From Deltaproteobacteria bacterium (GTDB lineage Bacteria; Desulfobacterota; Desulfomonilia; UBA1062), in the NCBI GenBank assembly GCA_017992605.1, contig JAGOOG010000008.1:34989-98988 (forward strand): a DNA stretch of 64,000 nt, read 5' to 3'. The position numbers and the translations under genes were made by a program. The notes beneath the pieces are model-generated. The model saw only the letters and a program-made list of their open reading frames with translations, did no database searches and was not told where the DNA came from. Below, piece after piece: positions 10,206 through 31,059 of this stretch (position 1 is its first letter; each line of letters opens with the position of its first letter).

Positions 10206-11576
10206 TCAGAAGGCTGCCGCAGCGTCGAGCGCATCGTACCTGTTCCTGTCGAGCCAGATCTTCATGTCCTCGGCCTGCCTGACGAGTTCGTCGCGAAACA
10301 TGGGGTGTGCAACGCCGATGAGGGCCTCTGCCCGCTCCCAGGTGGACTTGCCCTTGAGCTGCACGATGCCGAATTCGGTTGCCACGTACTGCACGGCAGA
10401 CCGCGGCACCGTGACAATGGCCCCAGGCCTCAGGGTCGGCACGATGCGCGAGTGGACGTTCCCGTCCCTGTCGGTGAAGGTGGAGCTTATGCCGATGATG
10501 CCTTTGCCTCCCCGGGAATTGAACGCGCCGAAGATGAAGTCGAACTGCCCCCCCGTCCCTGATATGTGAGCCGTCCCCGCGGACTCCGAGCATACCTGCC
10601 CGAACAGGTCGACCTCGATGGCATTGTTGATGGCCACCACCTTGTTGTTCACGGCGATGATCCTCGGGTCGTTGGTATAGTTAACCGGGTACGACGCGCA
10701 GGCCGGGTTGTTGTGGAGGAACTCGTAGAGCTTGTTCGTTCCCATCGCGAAGGTATAGACCATCTTGAACCGGTCGATGGTCTTGCAGTTGCCCGTTATC
10801 TTCCCCTCGTTATAGAGGTCCACCATGGAGTCCACGAGCATCTCTGTATGAATTCCCAGGTCCTTGAGGTCGGAATCCGCAATCATGGACCCGATCACAT
10901 TGGGCAGCCCGCCGATCCCCAACTGGAGGCAGGCGCCGTCCTCTATCTCGTTCATGATGTGCCGGGCGATCCTGACGTCAGTGTCCGCGGGTACGGCGGG
11001 CTTGACCTCCAGCAGAGGCAGATTCCGGCCCTGGACCACATAGTCCACGCGGGATATGTGGACCGACTCCTGGTTCCCGCCCAGGCAGTGGGGGAGAGAT
11101 TCGTTGACCTCCACGATCACCCGCTTGCCCTTGGTGATGGCCGCCGAGGTCAGGGAGTTGCACAGGCCGAAATTGAAGTATCCCTGGCTGTCCATGGGCC
11201 GTGCGGTCACGAAGACGAAGTCATAGTCCTTGTACTTTCTCACGACCCGAGGCCCCTGGTGATAGGTGAAGGGGACATAGCTGCACAATCCCTGCTGGTA
11301 GAGCTTCCTCCCCACGCCTGAGAAGTGCCAGTCATGATAGATGAAGTGCTCCCGACAGGGGTCCGCCTCGATGAACCTGGGCACCGTGGTGATGCATACA
11401 CCCTCGATGATGACGTTGCTCAGCTGCTTCGCCCGACGCGCCAGGGCCTCGTCAAGGGTGTCCGGCCTCAGCACGAACTCGCCGAAAAAGATCCTGTCAC
11501 CGGAGCTGACCATGCCGGCCACCTGATCGGCCGTACGGAGCTTCTGGATGTATTTCATCCTCGTGAAATCGTTCAT
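10206..11576 (-). CDS. Acetyl-CoA hydrolase / CoA-transferase family protein
   Basis: 456 residues of the acetyl-CoA hydrolase/4-hydroxybutyrate CoA-transferase group. The conserved C-terminal signature is present as GQVCSESAGT and SGTGGQFDFIFGA; the Glu in the first motif is the expected residue for the covalent CoA thioester. Family members move CoA between acyl-CoA and acetate or butyrate, or less often hydrolyse it; the exact donor cannot be read here. A GGAAGG site lies seven bases before the ATG. It is tail-to-tail with mscS, six bases apart, and divergent from the PAS kinase. In a syntrophic or fermentative organism it would serve butyrate/acetate metabolism (inference). Confidence 0.82.
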   Translation of the reverse strand: MNDFTRMKYIQKLRTADQVAGMVSSGDRIFFGEFVLRPDTLDEALARRAKQLSNVIIEGVCITTVPRFIEADPCREHFIYHDWHFSGVGRKLYQQGLCSYVPFTYHQGPRVVRKYKDYDFVFVTARPMDSQGYFNFGLCNSLTSAAITKGKRVIVEVNESLPHCLGGNQESVHISRVDYVVQGRNLPLLEVKPAVPADTDVRIARHIMNEIEDGACLQLGIGGLPNVIGSMIADSDLKDLGIHTEMLVDSMVDLYNEGKITGNCKTIDRFKMVYTFAMGTNKLYEFLHNNPACASYPVNYTNDPRIIAVNNKVVAINNAIEVDLFGQVCSESAGTAHISGTGGQFDFIFGAFNSRGGKGIIGISSTFTDRDGNVHSRIVPTLRPGAIVTVPRSAVQYVATEFGIVQLKGKSTWERAEALIGVAHPMFRDELVRQAEDMKIWLDRNRYDALDAAAAF

Positions 11577-24360: not shown

Positions 24361-25038
24361 TCACCGGACCACGGCTTCTGAACGCACCACGAGGACACCC
24401 TTGGATCTCATCGTGTCCAGGGCACGCCCGGCGCTGCCCGGTGGGGATCCCACGGGTCTCGCGAGGTCGAGCAGGAGGACGGCTTCATACCCCAGGTCCA
24501 CTCCGTCGCATGCGGTGTAGAAGACGCAGTAGTCCAGGGCCAGGCCGCAGACGAAGATCCTTTCCACCCCGCGGTCACGGAGGTATCCTTCCAGACCCGT
24601 GACGGTGGTCCGGTCGTTCTCGAGGAATGCTGAATAACTGTCGACCCCCTGCCGGAAGCCCTTCCTCACGATCGCCTGGGCAAGATGTGTCGTGAGATCG
24701 CGGTGGAAATCCGCCCCCCGGGAACCCTGGACACAGTGGTCGGGCCAGAGAACAGGCCCGATACCGGGCTCCTCGTGAAGATCGAAAGGGGTCCGGCCTG
24801 CGTAGGCCGAGGCGAAAGACCGGTGTCCCCGGGGGTGCCAGTCCTGGGTGAGGATCACGGGCATGCCCGAGTCGTGGAACTTCCGCATCACCCCGTTCAC
24901 GCCGGACACGATCTCATCGCCTTCGCGCACAGGCAGTGCGCCGCCCGGCATGAAGTCGTTCTGCATGTCCACGACGATGAGGGCATCCCGGGGACGTATG
25001 CGTATCTCTGCGGGATTATCACGGCTATTCATTCCCAT
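24361..25038 (-). CDS. pncA: Nicotinamidase (PncA) of the isochorismatase-like family
   Basis: 225 residues. It hydrolyses nicotinamide to nicotinate in NAD salvage. The catalytic triad is visible: Asp24 in VVDMQNDF, Lys126 in IVRKGF and Cys171 in GLALDYCV. The metal site is DWHPRGHRSF (Asp66, His68) plus the WPDHCVQG His. The size is close to E. coli PncA. It is convergent with glnS with no room for a terminator. Upstream lies a dyad-rich AT-rich region that may hold its promoter and that of the Cys-rich gene on the other strand. Confidence 0.88.
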   Translation of the reverse strand: MGMNSRDNPAEIRIRPRDALIVVDMQNDFMPGGALPVREGDEIVSGVNGVMRKFHDSGMPVILTQDWHPRGHRSFASAYAGRTPFDLHEEPGIGPVLWPDHCVQGSRGADFHRDLTTHLAQAIVRKGFRQGVDSYSAFLENDRTTVTGLEGYLRDRGVERIFVCGLALDYCVFYTACDGVDLGYEAVLLLDLARPVGSPPGSAGRALDTMRSKGVLVVRSEAVVR

Positions 25039-25165: not shown

Positions 25166-25282
25166 CATTATGGTGCATCCACCATAACCTATGGTTCAGG
25201 GACCATTTCATCTTATTGTCATACCATAATGCAATGTCTGTGGCGATTCGCCACCTTTCTGTTTTCATGAATATTATTCATG
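25166..25282. promoter_or_regulatory. Cluster of inverted repeats, possible activator/repressor sites
   Basis: TTATGGTG-CATC-CACCATAA (25168-25187), GTGGCGA-T-TCGCCAC (25240-25254) and CATGAAT-ATT-ATTCATG (25266-25282) are perfect. The core ACCATAA/TTATGGT occurs three times, with a CTATGGT near-copy at 25189. The cluster lies 30-150 bases upstream of the sigma-54-type element, where enhancer sites would be. Confidence 0.5.
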
Positions 25283-25314
25283 CGTAGGCCCCGACCTCCC
25301 CGTGCATGTCACCT

Positions 25315-25330
25315 TGGCACAGAATTGGCA
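25315..25330 (+). promoter_or_regulatory. Sigma-54-type promoter element
   Basis: TGGCAC (25315-25320) and TGGCA (25326-25330) place the invariant GG (25316-25317) and GC (25328-25329) exactly ten bases apart, as in -24/-12 promoters. The -12 half is TGGCA rather than TTGCA. The expected start, near 25341, gives a leader of about 40 bases to ATG 25381. Confidence 0.5.
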
Positions 25331-25380
25331 GACATACATAGTGAAACCCGGAAGGGTTGGAGACGGGAAAGGAGATCACC

Positions 25381-25608
25381 ATGCAACCGGCAAGAAAACT
25401 TGATGAGTGCGCATGCGGCGTCCACTCCGAACTGTCCTGCTCCGGATGCGGTACACCGGTTTGCAGGCATTGCAGCCACCAGGAGATCACGACCAACGAT
25501 CCCCGGAACATCACCATCGCGTACTACTGCCCCGCCTGCAAGGCCGACCCCAAGAAGAACACCTGGGGAACCCTGTACTGGGACAGTCTGGCTGCACTGT
25601 ACACCTGA
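25381..25608 (+). CDS. Small Cys-rich zinc-ribbon-like protein
   Basis: 75 residues from ATG 25381, chosen for the AGGAG site seven bases upstream. The chain carries paired metal-binding motifs: CACG, CSGCG, CRHCSH and a later CPAC. This fits one or two zinc sites of B-box or treble-clef type. There is no membrane segment or signal peptide. I do not recognise a named family. It is a single-gene unit under a possible sigma-54 promoter with upstream dyads. A role in protein interaction or metal sensing is possible; nothing more can be claimed. Confidence 0.65.
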   Translation: MQPARKLDECACGVHSELSCSGCGTPVCRHCSHQEITTNDPRNITIAYYCPACKADPKKNTWGTLYWDSLAALYT

Positions 25609-25862
25609 TCGTTCAGCAGACATGGGGGCGAGCTACCCATCTGGCCGCAAGGATCAGCTCGAAGCGCCGGGCACCATGACCACACACCATCGCACATTCC
25701 AGGCGCACCCCATCATGAAGGGCTGATGGCGAACAGCATACACGAGACAGCACCTCAGTGACGCCATCGGCCCTCCTTGCGGTTTTCAAGCACCTCCGAG
25801 AATACCATCCCCTCCGGTACCGCCGGAGAGACCCGGCACGAAAAACCTGACCTGCCCAAGCC

Positions 25863-27254
25863 TCATCTCCGCCTCCTCACATCCCCCCTGGCCAGGGAGG
25901 CGAATATGCCCGGTATGCAGATCACACAGAAAAACAGGAAGCCGGTGTGCATGGCTGTCATGAAGGCCGCGCCCGTCTGTGGGGTGATGGCGCTCCTGCC
26001 GATGAACAGCGAGAAGAGCACGAGCACGATGCCCATGCTGAATGCCTGGCCGGTGATGCGCATGGTCGAGATCACGCTGGATGCGACACCATAGTCGCTC
26101 CTGTCCACTGAGCTCATGACCGCGTTCGTGTTGGGGGAGGAAAAAAGCGCAAAGCCGAGGCCAATGAAGGCGAGGCAACTCACGAGCTCCAGGGTGCCCG
26201 CCCGTTCCCCGGTGAACGACAGGAAGGCCAGGCCCATGGCCGTGACGGCCATGCCGGCCGAAGCCATGATGCGCGGCTCGATGCGATCGGAGAGGCGACC
26301 GGCCACCGGAGAGAGCAAGGTCATGACCGCGGGCTGCGTCACCAGGATGAGACCTGCCTGTGAGGGGCTCAGTCCCTTGACGACCTGGAGGTACATGCTG
26401 AGCAGGAAGCTGATGGAGAAGGTGGCGCTGTAGTGGATGAACGCTGCCACGTTGGACCAGGCGAACGCACGGTTGGAACAGAGCAGGCTCATGTCGAGGA
26501 TGGGAGAGGCCTGGGCCCTTTCCCAGAGTATGAATGCGCCCAGGGCCGTGATGCCCGACCCGAGGAGGACATACCCCGTCAATGCGGGCATGGACGAGAA
26601 TCCGATCATGAGGGAGACCAGGCTCATCGAGTAGATCGCCGATCCGGTCAGGTCGAGATCCCTCAGGGACCGCCCCCCGGCGTCTTCACGGATGCACCTC
26701 AGGGCCATGCACAAGGTCGCTGCGCCAAGCAGGAAGCCGAGCACGAAGATGCCCTGCCAACCGAAATGGTCGGTGATCCCTCCACCGATGAACGGTCCGA
26801 GCGTAAGGCCGCCATAGACCGCGGCCGTGGTGATCCCGATGGCCGTGCCCCGACGGTCGGGTCTTGTCACCGCCGTCAGGATGGCCATGGACGTGCTGAA
26901 AATCATGGCCCCTCCTATACCCTGGACGACACGGAACAGCAGGAGCGTCCAGCCGCTGCCCGCCAGGGGGATGCACAGACACATGAGGGTGAAGGTGAGG
27001 ATGCCTGCCGTGAAGATTCTCTTCCTGCCCAGGATATCCGCCGCCCTGCCGAGGGGGAGCAGAAAGACGGCCGATGCGATGAGGTAGGAGGTCGATACCC
27101 AGCTGAGCAGCATGGCATCCATGGAGTAGGCCAGCCCTATCCTCGGCAGCGCGATATTGACCGATGAACCCATGAACGGGGTGATGAACGATGAGATGGA
27201 GGCGACGAGCAGTACGCTTCGCTCTTGACTGCGCTGGTGGGCGTCCTCTGTCAT
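25863..27254 (-). CDS. Major facilitator superfamily drug exporter (DHA2/EmrB-QacA type)
   Basis: 463 residues with about 14 predicted hydrophobic helices. The N-terminal motif around SSFITPFMGSSVNIALPRIG and the loop 2-3 motif LGRAADILGRKRIF are typical of drug:H+ antiporters of the DHA2 group. The motif C region VQGIGGAMIFSTSMAILTA supports antiport. It exports hydrophobic compounds by proton exchange; substrates cannot be predicted. It is the last gene after the four-PAS kinase and NtrC-type regulator, 44 bases downstream, so it may be under their control. Confidence 0.85.
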   Translation of the reverse strand: MTEDAHQRSQERSVLLVASISSFITPFMGSSVNIALPRIGLAYSMDAMLLSWVSTSYLIASAVFLLPLGRAADILGRKRIFTAGILTFTLMCLCIPLAGSGWTLLLFRVVQGIGGAMIFSTSMAILTAVTRPDRRGTAIGITTAAVYGGLTLGPFIGGGITDHFGWQGIFVLGFLLGAATLCMALRCIREDAGGRSLRDLDLTGSAIYSMSLVSLMIGFSSMPALTGYVLLGSGITALGAFILWERAQASPILDMSLLCSNRAFAWSNVAAFIHYSATFSISFLLSMYLQVVKGLSPSQAGLILVTQPAVMTLLSPVAGRLSDRIEPRIMASAGMAVTAMGLAFLSFTGERAGTLELVSCLAFIGLGFALFSSPNTNAVMSSVDRSDYGVASSVISTMRITGQAFSMGIVLVLFSLFIGRSAITPQTGAAFMTAMHTGFLFFCVICIPGIFASLARGDVRRRR

Positions 27255-27298: not shown

Positions 27299-28756
27299 TC
27301 AGGCCGTCCGTTCCCGTTTCTTGGTGAGCCGGTATTTCTCCACCTTGAGATAGAATGTCTTGTAGTTGAGGCCCGACTCCCGGGCGGCCTCAGCGATGAC
27401 GCCCCCGTGCTTCTCGAGGAGGTGTGCGAAGTATTTTCGCTCGAACTGCTCCAGGAGGGCCTTCTTGATGGCGTGGTAGTCGTTGCCCTCTCCCGCTTCC
27501 ACCAGGATGGTGGGTTCCTCGGGGACCGGCGAGGCCATATCGGCCGGGGTCTCGGAGAGGACCCTGCCGAGCTCGGGAAAGTCCGTGATGAGGTCTGATC
27601 GCGTGGATACCATGGCGTGCTGGATGATGTTCTCCATCTCCCGCACGTTGCCGGGCCACGGATACGTCTCGAGCTGCTCCATGGCCCTGGGTGAAATCCC
27701 CCTGACCGAGGAATTGAGCTTCCTGGCATACTTGCTGATGAAGTGGCTGGCCAGCAGCGATATGTCCTCCCTGCGCTCGCGGACCGGCGGCACGATGATC
27801 GGCAGCACGCTGATGCGGTAGTAGAGGTCCTCACGGAAGAGTTCCTTCCTGATCATCTCCTGGATGGGGCGGTTCGTGGCGCAGATCACCCTGAAGTCCA
27901 GCTCGATCTCGCGGTTGCTGCCGAGCCTGGTGATCCTGTGGTCCTCAAGCACCCTGAGGATCTTGGCCTGGAGGTCCAGGGGGATGTCGCCTATCTCATC
28001 GAGGAAGATGGTGCCGGTATGGGCCTTCTCGAACTTGCCTATCCTCTGGCTGATGGCCCCGCTGAACGCACCCTTCTCGTGGCCGAAGAACTCCGACTCC
28101 AGCAGGTTCTCCGGGATGGCGGCACAGTTGATCACCACGAAGGGCTTGGACCTCCGGTCGCTGCGTGAGTGTATGGATCTGGCGATGAGCTCCTTTCCGG
28201 TCCCTGTCTCTCCCAGGATGAGCACCGTGAGGTCGGTCTCCGCAGCGGTAAGGATCTGTTCATAGAGCCTCTGCATCTTGGGATGGGACCCCACAAGCTG
28301 GTCGAGTCCCTCAGCATGCTGCTGTATCTGGCCCTTGAGCTCGATATTCTCCTTGAGGATCTCGTGCTGCCTGAGGATCTTGGTGAGCGAGATCTCCAGC
28401 GTATCCATGTTGAAGGGCTTTTCCAGAAAATCATATGCACCGTATTTCATCGCCTCCACCGCCCCCGAGATGCTGCCGAAGGCTGTGACGACGACGACAT
28501 AAGTGGTGGGGTAGCGGTTGTGAATCTCCTTGAGCAACGCGTACCCATCCATACGCGGCATCTTGATGTCCGTGATGACGATGTCGTGGCGGTCTGCCTC
28601 GATCTTCTCCAGGGCATCCAAACCGTCACAGGCCGTGTCTATCTGGAGATCGAGGTTCGACTGCTCAAGGGCATCCTTGAGCTGCTCGAGGAAGACCTCT
28701 TCATCATCGACGAGCAGGATCTTCTTTTTCTCCTCCACTCTTTTCCTCGCTCTCAC
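27299..28756 (-). CDS. NtrC-family sigma-54-dependent response regulator
   Basis: 485 residues. Receiver (about 10-125) with LLVDDEE and phospho-acceptor Asp in IVITDIKMPRMDGY. AAA+ domain (about 150-385) with Walker A GETGTGKE, GAF loop GAFSGA, Walker B TIFLDEIGD, and an arginine region FREDLYYRISVLPI. A Fis-type helix-turn-helix ends the protein (VIAEAARESGLNYKTFYLKV). The usual GAFTGA is GAFSGA here. It starts with GTG and overlaps the kinase stop by four bases (GTGA), so it is the kinase's partner. It would activate sigma-54 promoters such as the one at 25315 (inference). Confidence 0.92.
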   Translation of the reverse strand: MRARKRVEEKKKILLVDDEEVFLEQLKDALEQSNLDLQIDTACDGLDALEKIEADRHDIVITDIKMPRMDGYALLKEIHNRYPTTYVVVVTAFGSISGAVEAMKYGAYDFLEKPFNMDTLEISLTKILRQHEILKENIELKGQIQQHAEGLDQLVGSHPKMQRLYEQILTAAETDLTVLILGETGTGKELIARSIHSRSDRRSKPFVVINCAAIPENLLESEFFGHEKGAFSGAISQRIGKFEKAHTGTIFLDEIGDIPLDLQAKILRVLEDHRITRLGSNREIELDFRVICATNRPIQEMIRKELFREDLYYRISVLPIIVPPVRERREDISLLASHFISKYARKLNSSVRGISPRAMEQLETYPWPGNVREMENIIQHAMVSTRSDLITDFPELGRVLSETPADMASPVPEEPTILVEAGEGNDYHAIKKALLEQFERKYFAHLLEKHGGVIAEAARESGLNYKTFYLKVEKYRLTKKRERTA

Positions 28757-31059
28757 CTGCTTCGGCGGACATCGCCGCGCCCCGGGGCGGGCGTCTTGGC
28801 CGGGTTGATCCTCTCACGGGGAAGCCTGATGACGATCTCAGCCCCGTGATCCACACCGTTGGCCGCCTCCAGCTCGCCGTTGTGCATATCGATGACCTTC
28901 CTGGCAAGGGCGAGTCCAAGTCCTGTCCCCTTGGCCTTTTTCGTGAAGAACGGCTGGAAGATCCGTTCCAGGTCCTCCCCTGCGATACCGCAGCCGGTGT
29001 CCCTGAGGCGGACTTCCACTGCCTCGGTGCAGAACGAGTCGCTGCCCTGGATGAAAACGTGCCGGGCGATGGCCCGGGTGGTGATCGTCAGGGTCCCGCC
29101 ATCGGTCATGGCGTCCAGCGCATTCTCTATGATGTTGGCAAAGACCTGGCGGAGCTGGATCCCGTCGACCTCCGCCATGTCGGCGTCCTGGTCGTAGACG
29201 GTTTCCACCCGTATTCCGTGCTGTTCGAACGTGTCGGTCAGGTTGAACAGCAGGCCGTCGATGATGTTGCTGATCCGGTGAGGCTTGGGTCTGATCTCGC
29301 CGGAACGTGTCCATTCGAGGATCTGGGTGACGAACTTCTCCAGGTTGTCCACCCCGTTCTTCACCCCGTCGAGCTGTCTGCGCTGGCGATCGTCGAGCGC
29401 CAGGGAGCTGGACAGGAGCTCCACCCCCGTCTTGATCTTCTGGAGGGGGTTCCTCACCTCGTGGGCCACGTGGGCTGACATCTCGCCGAGGATGGCCATC
29501 TTCCGGGCCTGCTCGAGCTCACGCTGCATCTGTTTGATGTCAGTGATGTCCATGATGGAGACAATGCTCAGCATGGTGCCTGGTATCATGCCGATGGTCA
29601 GGAAGGAGTCGCGGACGGTGCCGAACTTGTCCACGAACCGGAACTCGTACTGGGAAGGCACGTCCAAGGCGCCCTGGCGCCTCGCCTTGGAGTAGGCCTT
29701 CATGCGCTCGAGGTCGTCAGGATGCACGACCTGGGTCCACCTCATCTTCCCGATGATCTCGTCCTTGGTGTACCCGCTGAGCTTCTCCATCTGGTTGTTG
29801 GCAAAGGTGACCCGGTAATCCTCGTCAAGGATCATCATGGCCGTCCCGGTATGTTCCACGGTGGCACGGTACTTCGCCTCGCTGGCACGCAGGGCCTTCT
29901 GGGCCTCCCGCTTTTCCGTGATATCCCGGATGACGTTCTGGGTCGCGGGCCTTCCCTCGTACTCGATGACCGAAGGGGTGATCTCGAAGGCTCGCCAGAT
30001 CTCGTCCCTGCTGCGCAATGCGATCTCGTACTGTTCCGGGACCTTCTCCCCCCTTATGCGCTTGTCGTAACGGGCTTCGATCATGTGTGCGAGCTCCGGG
30101 CGCACGATATCCTTGAGCCCCATCCGGGAGATCTCGTCCTCCGTGTATCCGAGCTGTTCCCGGAAGGCAGGGTTGGTGTACTTGAACTGGTGGTCCTGGT
30201 AGACGAAGATCCCATCGGCGGTCTTCTCCACCAGCATCCGGTATTTCTGCTCCGACTCCCTGAGCCTGTTCTCCACTGCCTTCATGGGCCTGAGGTCGCG
30301 GAAGACACTGATGGCCGCCACGGGCCTGCCTTCGGAATACAGGTACGATATGGACAGCGAGATGGGGATGAGCTCACCGTTCTTTGCATAGACCTTCGTC
30401 TCTTCGCTCACGACCCACGTGGGATTCTCTTCGGTCCCCTGGTCCAGAATGGCCATGATCCGGTCTCGCTCGCCCGGCATGATGAACTCGGCGATGTTGC
30501 TCTTGTGGTTGAGCATGTCTTCGGCGCAGTAGCCGGTGATCTCCTCGGCGGCCTTGTTGAAGATGAGGGCCTTTCCCTTGAGGTCGGAGGCCACGATGGC
30601 GTCCGAAGAGCTCGCGATGAGCCCTGCGAGGAACTTGTTGGTCGACTCCAGGCTCTGCTCCATGCCCTTGCGCCTGGTGATGTCGTGGGCGATGTTCAGG
30701 GTTGCGGGTTCTCCCGAGAGAGAGATCATGGAGGTGGACATCGAGACGATGCGCTCATGCCCTGCCTTGGTCGCGAAGACCACGTCGAGCCTGCGGGGTC
30801 GTACGTCCTCGTCCCTGATGAACGCATTGTACCGCTGCTGCATGTGGCGGGCGCCTTCACGATGCATGACATCGGCGAAACCCAGCTCCTCGAGCTCTTC
30901 GGCGGAATAACCCAGCATCCTCTCGAAGGCGGGATTCACGTAGAAGAACCGGCTGTCCTGATAGACGAAAATGCCGTCATGGGCCACTTCCACCATGGCC
31001 TGGAAGACGGCCTTGGTGATCTTTTTCGCCTTCAGGTGTGCAGGGTTATGGGCGTGCAT
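28753..31059 (-). CDS. Soluble sensor histidine kinase with four PAS domains
   Basis: 768 residues from ATG 31059 (a TTG at 31101 would add 14). Four PAS domains: DGIFVYQDSRFFYVNPAF, then SSSDAIVASDLKGKALIF, then DGIFVYQDHQFKYTNPAF, then GTAMMILDEDYRVTFANN. The first and third are near-duplicates. HisKA has the phospho-His in HVAHEVRNPLQKIKTG and HATPase_c has NIIENALDAM, DTGCGI and GTGLGLALARKVIDMH. No membrane segment, so the signal is cytosolic, perhaps redox or small molecule. The stop overlaps the NtrC-type gene. No clear ribosome site is seen at either start. Confidence 0.87.
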   Translation of the reverse strand: MHAHNPAHLKAKKITKAVFQAMVEVAHDGIFVYQDSRFFYVNPAFERMLGYSAEELEELGFADVMHREGARHMQQRYNAFIRDEDVRPRRLDVVFATKAGHERIVSMSTSMISLSGEPATLNIAHDITRRKGMEQSLESTNKFLAGLIASSSDAIVASDLKGKALIFNKAAEEITGYCAEDMLNHKSNIAEFIMPGERDRIMAILDQGTEENPTWVVSEETKVYAKNGELIPISLSISYLYSEGRPVAAISVFRDLRPMKAVENRLRESEQKYRMLVEKTADGIFVYQDHQFKYTNPAFREQLGYTEDEISRMGLKDIVRPELAHMIEARYDKRIRGEKVPEQYEIALRSRDEIWRAFEITPSVIEYEGRPATQNVIRDITEKREAQKALRASEAKYRATVEHTGTAMMILDEDYRVTFANNQMEKLSGYTKDEIIGKMRWTQVVHPDDLERMKAYSKARRQGALDVPSQYEFRFVDKFGTVRDSFLTIGMIPGTMLSIVSIMDITDIKQMQRELEQARKMAILGEMSAHVAHEVRNPLQKIKTGVELLSSSLALDDRQRRQLDGVKNGVDNLEKFVTQILEWTRSGEIRPKPHRISNIIDGLLFNLTDTFEQHGIRVETVYDQDADMAEVDGIQLRQVFANIIENALDAMTDGGTLTITTRAIARHVFIQGSDSFCTEAVEVRLRDTGCGIAGEDLERIFQPFFTKKAKGTGLGLALARKVIDMHNGELEAANGVDHGAEIVIRLPRERINPAKTPAPGRGDVRRSR

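Follow-up and report, generated by a model that had tools for sequence, protein, structure and literature searches.

One of the closest known counterparts of the system presented here is AtoS–AtoC of Escherichia coli. This pair activates atoDAEB, a sigma-54-dependent operon for short-chain fatty acids, the AtoC sites being two 20-bp inverted sites that make up a 40-bp palindrome upstream of the sigma-54 promoter (PMC3118216). The regulons of the sigma-54 enhancer-binding proteins of Desulfovibrio vulgaris were described by comparative genomics, which yielded their motifs and targets, and according to the main text of that report some of the predicted targets are hypothetical proteins (PMC4641369). 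Regulatory RNAs that are sigma-54-dependent and driven by an activator are also known, namely those of the Qrr type, e.g., in Vibrio fischeri (PMC10162802).

The window, i.e., the whole 64-kb stretch of DNA analysed, belongs to a member of UBA1062, a family of the class Desulfomonilia and a candidate syntrophic degrader of butyrate and long-chain fatty acids (2026 paper, PMC13248872); no published description of regulation in this uncultured family was found. Similarly to AtoSC, it encodes an NtrC-family response regulator with a kinase and contains paired inverted sites upstream of a putative sigma-54 promoter, that of a small gene called here gene A. It differs from AtoSC in that the half-site TATGG/CCATA does not resemble the AtoC-derived motifs of PMC3118216, the CoA-transferase of the predicted regulon is of the glutaconate type, and the regulon also comprises zinc mini-proteins and a probable RNA. 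With the D. vulgaris regulons it shares the kind of system, the approach to assigning motifs and targets, and the broad bacterial phylum, while TATGG/CCATA is absent from the main text of PMC4641369 and the target genes given there differ. Judging from its sequence features, the system is a new regulon within the known sigma-54 type, and the small, probably zinc-binding proteins that it drives make up a new family. Thus a predicted activator, its binding motif and a list of targets become available for an uncultured family of candidate syntrophic fatty-acid degraders, together with an undescribed small zinc-protein family and a probable RNA of high conservation, both of which appear to share a switch with acyl-CoA enzymes; these parts offer handles on how candidate syntrophs sense their substrate or partner.

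The promoter of gene A and its upstream sites

Gene A (25381–25608, plus strand) is preceded on the same strand by the -24/-12 element TGGCACAGAATTGGCA (25315–25330), in which GG (25316–25317) and GC (25328–25329) are 10 nucleotides apart within a TGGCAY...GCW context, and from which transcription would very likely start near 25341. The genome also carries a sigma-54 gene (G000:C32, PF04552, E 6.9e-63). TGGCAY-N5-TNGCW has one match only in the 64-kb window, with 0.49 expected by chance, so the motif by itself is not significant, and the significance of both this element and the dyads described below is decided by conservation among homologous loci. The element was found at the corresponding place in 28 of 30 such loci, which come from one uncultured family and represent most of its genera, and nearly all of the 28 have it between positions -46 and -80 relative to the modelled start. 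Both homologues lacking it (L021 and L022, from genomes G006 and G008) come from genomes that also lack the regulator encoded in the window. The base at -14 of sigma-54 promoters is usually T. It is almost never T in the promoters of this family, which counts against a sigma-54 reading. On the strength of its conservation, the gene A promoter is nevertheless considered a real, strongly conserved sigma-54-type promoter, as the sequence-only reading had proposed from the exact GG-N10-GC spacing. Between it and the gene lies a ribosome-binding site, AAAGGAG (25369–25375, plus strand), retained in two relatives (G003 and G004).

Upstream of the element there are three perfect dyads, TTATGGTG-N4-CACCATAA (25168–25187), GTGGCGA-T-TCGCCAC (25240–25254), and CATGAATA-T-TATTCATG (25266–25282), as well as copies of the ACCATAA repeat at 25181 and 25223. 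All of these had been put forward as features of an activator-binding region, and all are present, but in an alignment with relatives only the first dyad is kept, along with the -24/-12 element. Even the closest relative does not preserve the dyads at 25240–25254 and 25266–25282 or the isolated ACCATAATG at 25223, and these two dyads were rejected as activator sites. Visible constraint is therefore limited to one of the three perfect dyads, whose true partner appears to be the adjoining imperfect dyad. The first putative upstream activator site, TATGGTGCATCCACCATA (25169–25186), is a perfect TATGGY-N6-RCCATA dyad kept in orthologues and paralogues, and the second, TATGGTTCAGGGACCATT (25190–25207), is a conserved imperfect one matching 11 of the 12 specified positions; neither is assigned to a strand. 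The two are 21 bp apart, centre to centre.

A tandem pair of TATGGY-N6-RCCATA dyads, 19–22 bp apart from centre to centre, occurs in most orthologues and paralogues of the locus, and at most loci the dyads begin ca. 144 and 125 bp (A type, as in the window) or ca. 124 and 105 bp (B type, the paralogue) upstream of the T of the -24 element; four loci (L016, L017, L025, and L030) have a single clear dyad or irregular spacing. When six orthologues were aligned, the conserved upstream columns clustered in the dyad pair and in the -24/-12 element. The strict tandem pattern was found in 16 genomes of the family and in one among 36 genomes outside it, with no match in any of the reversed controls. 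The conserved tandem dyads at 25169–25207 thus lie in the range of about 100–200 bp upstream typical of activator-binding sites, which supports the existence of an activator-binding region here, as previously suggested.

Transcription units sharing the promoter architecture

The search of the genome for further copies of the dyad, recommended in the sequence-only reading, revealed exact TATGGY-N6-RCCATA at four places, compared with none in the reversed control. Three of them belong to regulon promoters, that of gene A included, while the remaining single dyad (G000:C2:136526) lies inside a coding region reading as proS and was taken as a chance occurrence. The fourth regulon promoter, that of a protein of ca. 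100 amino acids, has a slightly imperfect tandem pair. A composite pattern, comprising the dyad, a spacer of 70–131 bp and the -24/-12 element, was searched for over 25 genomes and found at four promoters in this genome and at more than 40 places in genomes of the family, to which its matches are mainly confined; the reversed controls gave none except for one match in one genome. Isolated, off-type matches in G015 (L105, a flagellar gene), G025 (L081), and G051 (L035) were taken as chance.

Since the twin sites recur at three other promoters, gene A is part of a small regulon not described before, and the predicted content of this regulon is supported by the pattern and its conservation. The earlier idea of an enhancer dedicated to one tiny protein has to be abandoned, as at least four transcription units of this genome appear to share the enhancer and promoter. 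Besides gene A, coding for a protein of 75 amino acids, these are a glutaconate-CoA-transferase-like operon (C2:126009), in which the Pfam domain CoA_trans occurs twice and for which the best solved relative is glutaconate CoA-transferase 1poi (E 5.9e-29); the B-type gene for the ca. 100-amino-acid putative zinc protein, located on contig C24 next to an ADP-forming acyl-CoA synthetase-like gene; and a probable small RNA, also on C24, directly after the latter zinc-protein gene and ahead of genes reading as rplU–rpmA, with a conserved hairpin and a T-run at its end. Profile comparison indicates that the ca. 100-amino-acid protein is homologous to the 75-amino-acid one (probability 99.1, E 5.6e-19). 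In relatives, like promoters precede genes for ADP-forming and AMP-forming acyl-CoA ligases and 3-hydroxyacyl-CoA dehydrogenase. The regulon company of gene A, as predicted, is acyl-CoA metabolism, and the small-protein family and the probable RNA, both new, are the more unusual parts of the regulon.

The window also contains a butyryl-CoA:acetate CoA-transferase-like gene (10206–11576; 538.9 bits, with a curated cut-off of 674.8), in the vicinity of which there is neither a dyad nor a -24/-12 match. The gene A of genus g4 is located 3–8 kb from a cluster reading like electron-transfer-flavoprotein, Fe-S oxidoreductase, and acyl-CoA dehydrogenase genes (L142–L144), which is in line with a fatty-acid link.

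The candidate activator and alternative explanations

An NtrC-type regulator and kinase had been pointed out near gene A, and both are present as described. The response regulator (27299–28738, minus strand) consists of REC, sigma-54 AAA+, and Fis-type HTH domains (PF00072, PF00158, PF25601, and PF02954), and the adjoining histidine kinase (28753–31059, minus strand) has four PAS domains followed by HisKA and HATPase_c; the kinase adjoins the regulator in relatives too, so that by domain content and gene order the two form a pair. The best NCBIfam match of the regulator is AtoC (NF008469), but its 417.7 bits are below the cut-off of 714, and it is therefore not AtoC. In the regulator orthologues examined, the recognition-helix region, with the HTH core AARESG[LM]NYKTFYLK, is nearly invariant. 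An MFS transporter gene (25863–27254) lies between gene A and the regulator, and it remains by the regulator in genus g4, from where gene A has moved away. The gene divergent from the promoter (24361–25038) reads like one for nicotinamidase/isochorismatase, and in some relatives such a gene is situated directly after the regulator (L175).

Orthologues of the regulator, 68–92% identical to it, are found in exactly 20 of 24 genomes of the family, the same ones that have the regulon. It is absent from G006, G008, G009, and G015, with no match there exceeding 47% identity (in all genomes outside the family the best one stays below 50%), and these are the genomes without regulon promoters, save for the off-type flagellar match in G015; the four may be related (a basal group), so the co-occurrence does not represent four independent losses or tests. 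Gene A lies beside the regulator in five relatives from two genera (G001–G004 and G012), and in G005 the B-type gene follows the regulator on the same short contig. Co-occurrence and synteny together indicate that the window regulator is most likely the activator of the regulon and that it would bind the tandem dyads.

In the explanation which we regard as probable, the sigma-54 promoter with its two-dimer upstream site is driven by the adjoining kinase and regulator, and switches on an acyl-CoA-linked regulon including the putatively zinc-binding protein A. The PAS-domain kinase would phosphorylate the response regulator, dimers of which would bind the tandem sites ca. 130–170 bp upstream of the start, oligomerise, and loop to the sigma-54 RNA polymerase at 25315–25330, driving transcription from about 25341. 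The same switch would also induce the ca. 100-amino-acid zinc protein, the probable terminator-ended small RNA, and the glutaconate-CoA-transferase-like operon, while protein A would be a small zinc-binding accessory or regulatory protein produced under inducing conditions. Such a shared switch over a CoA-transferase operon, zinc proteins, and an RNA suggests that the regulon most likely adjusts organic-acid or acyl-CoA metabolism in this candidate syntroph, and the targets, as well as the parallel with AtoSC, point to a signal linked to organic acids or acyl-CoA.

The genome holds 21 full sigma-54 activators, and another of them might drive the promoter and its tandem sites, with the adjoining regulator controlling something else. 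The C-terminal parts of six of the 21 were traced as a control across the 24 family genomes. Two activators have distributions nearly equal to that of the regulon, L148 (17 of the 20 genomes that have it) and L163 (18 of 20), both being absent from the four regulon-less genomes, and in genus g4 the regulator is not next to gene A. Of the remaining ones, L160 is patchy, whereas L154 and L158 turn up in genomes without the regulon (G008 or G009). The window regulator alone gives 20 of 20 versus 0 of 4, and its location beside gene A in two genera, as well as on one short contig with the B-type gene in G005, likewise makes a different activator unlikely. Control by an ordinary dimeric repressor or activator bound to the dyads, with the sigma-70-like hexamers TTGGCA-17-CATAGT (25314–25342) as the working promoter, draws on a 9/12 match to the sigma-70 consensus overlapping the -24/-12 element, but it is the TGGCAY-N5-TNGCW motif that is conserved and not the -10 hexamer, the dyads keep regular offsets of more than 100 bp on the upstream side, as befits an enhancer and not an operator, and the linked regulator carries a sigma-54 AAA+ domain; this explanation is therefore very improbable. 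A chance arrangement of motifs in the intergenic region, conceivable as long as a single -24/-12 match expected some 0.5 times per window is considered, is refuted by the retention of the -24/-12 element at 28 of 30 loci, which represent most of the family's genera, and by the near-zero counts in the composite-pattern controls.

Protein A and the probable RNA elements of the regulon

Protein A (75 amino acids) has eight cysteines in CxC/CxxC pairs (C10xC12, C20xxC23, C28xxC31, and C50xxC53), of which seven are invariant and C28 is nearly so among 12 orthologues; N60, WG at 62–63, and LYW at 65–67 are invariant as well. Its homologues are present in 22 of 60 related genomes, all from the window's own family. 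No Pfam or NCBIfam model matched at its cut-off, in agreement with the earlier description of a product with four Cys-pair motifs and no recognised family. It shows weak similarity to zinc-finger families and to ribosomal protein L33, the best Pfam match being the HVO_0758 family, whose cut-offs protein A does not reach (PF23137, 17.1 bits against 27; NF041912, 15.6 against 70). Protein A resembles HVO_0758 of Haloferax and Com of phage Mu in its very small size and CxxC pairs, and differs from them in having eight cysteines and an NxWGxLYW C-terminal segment which matches no model. In an AlphaFold2 model (pLDDT 75.4, pTM 0.60) it forms short hairpins and a C-terminal helix, with no confident fold match (best PDB match E 0.28). 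Protein A is thus probably a small zinc-binding, treble-clef-like protein, and in the most economical reading, proposed tentatively since the fold prediction is moderate and matches nothing, it would have an accessory or regulatory function as a structural zinc finger. Of the signalling or metal-handling role suggested before, the latter is not indicated, because the cysteines are consistent with such a finger and the regulon yielded no gene for transport or resistance, while signalling may yet be its role.

The RNA of the fourth unit has a highly conserved 3' domain of ca. 85 nucleotides, AACTGAAACCTCCTTTTTGATGCCAGAAGA...TCTTCTGGCATTTTTTTT (L033; G000:C24:5599–5681, minus strand), situated between the B-type zinc gene and rplU, behind a dyad and a putative sigma-54 promoter. 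In these last ca. 85 nucleotides of the unit 59 positions are invariant among 14 genomes; they fold at -24.5 kcal/mol (z -4.95) and carry an unpaired ACCTCCTTTT. Covariation support is slight (one pair), as the stem hardly varies. Strong matches to the RNA model were obtained in 16 genomes of the family, with none in the four activator-less genomes and none outside the family. These features suggest that the unit is transcribed as a small RNA, which, like Qrr, would be expressed from a sigma-54 promoter but, unlike Qrr, matches no Rfam family. A short ORF (48 amino acids) in the G000 RNA was rejected as coding, a comparable frame not being open in several relatives. When 107 genes were scanned for duplexes and complementary stretches were searched for, the only conserved target obtained was the RNA gene itself.

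Another structured region lies in the 3' part of the gene A transcript (25645–25782, plus strand), with an outer stem formed by CCGCAAGG (25645–25652) and CCTTGCGG (25775–25782) and an inner one by 25720–25731 and 25762–25773. Among six genomes (G000–G004 and G012), six of its 28 consensus pairs show compensatory changes. This region, not represented in Rfam, is possibly a complex terminator or a 3'-UTR-derived RNA.

In a broader reading, which we consider unlikely, the regulon would be a module that controls syntrophic acyl-CoA metabolism post-transcriptionally, and the zinc mini-proteins A and B would act as RNA- or protein-binding adaptors together with the co-induced small RNA. If so, one kinase signal would set both the synthesis of the CoA-transferase and the translation of other mRNAs, the unpaired ACCTCCTTTT of the RNA being able to mask Shine-Dalgarno sequences.

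The RNA model also gave weaker matches (35–58 bits, up to 10 of them in G011) sharing CCTCC and the GCCAGAAGA terminator stem, which were not counted as regulon members, the loci examined having no upstream sigma-54 site. Additional RNA loci of relatives (L247–L258) share CCTCC and a terminator stem, GCCAGAAGA/TCTTCTGGC, but have another inner hairpin, likewise lack a sigma-54 site, and look like a wider, undescribed RNA family; some of them come after a response-regulator gene.
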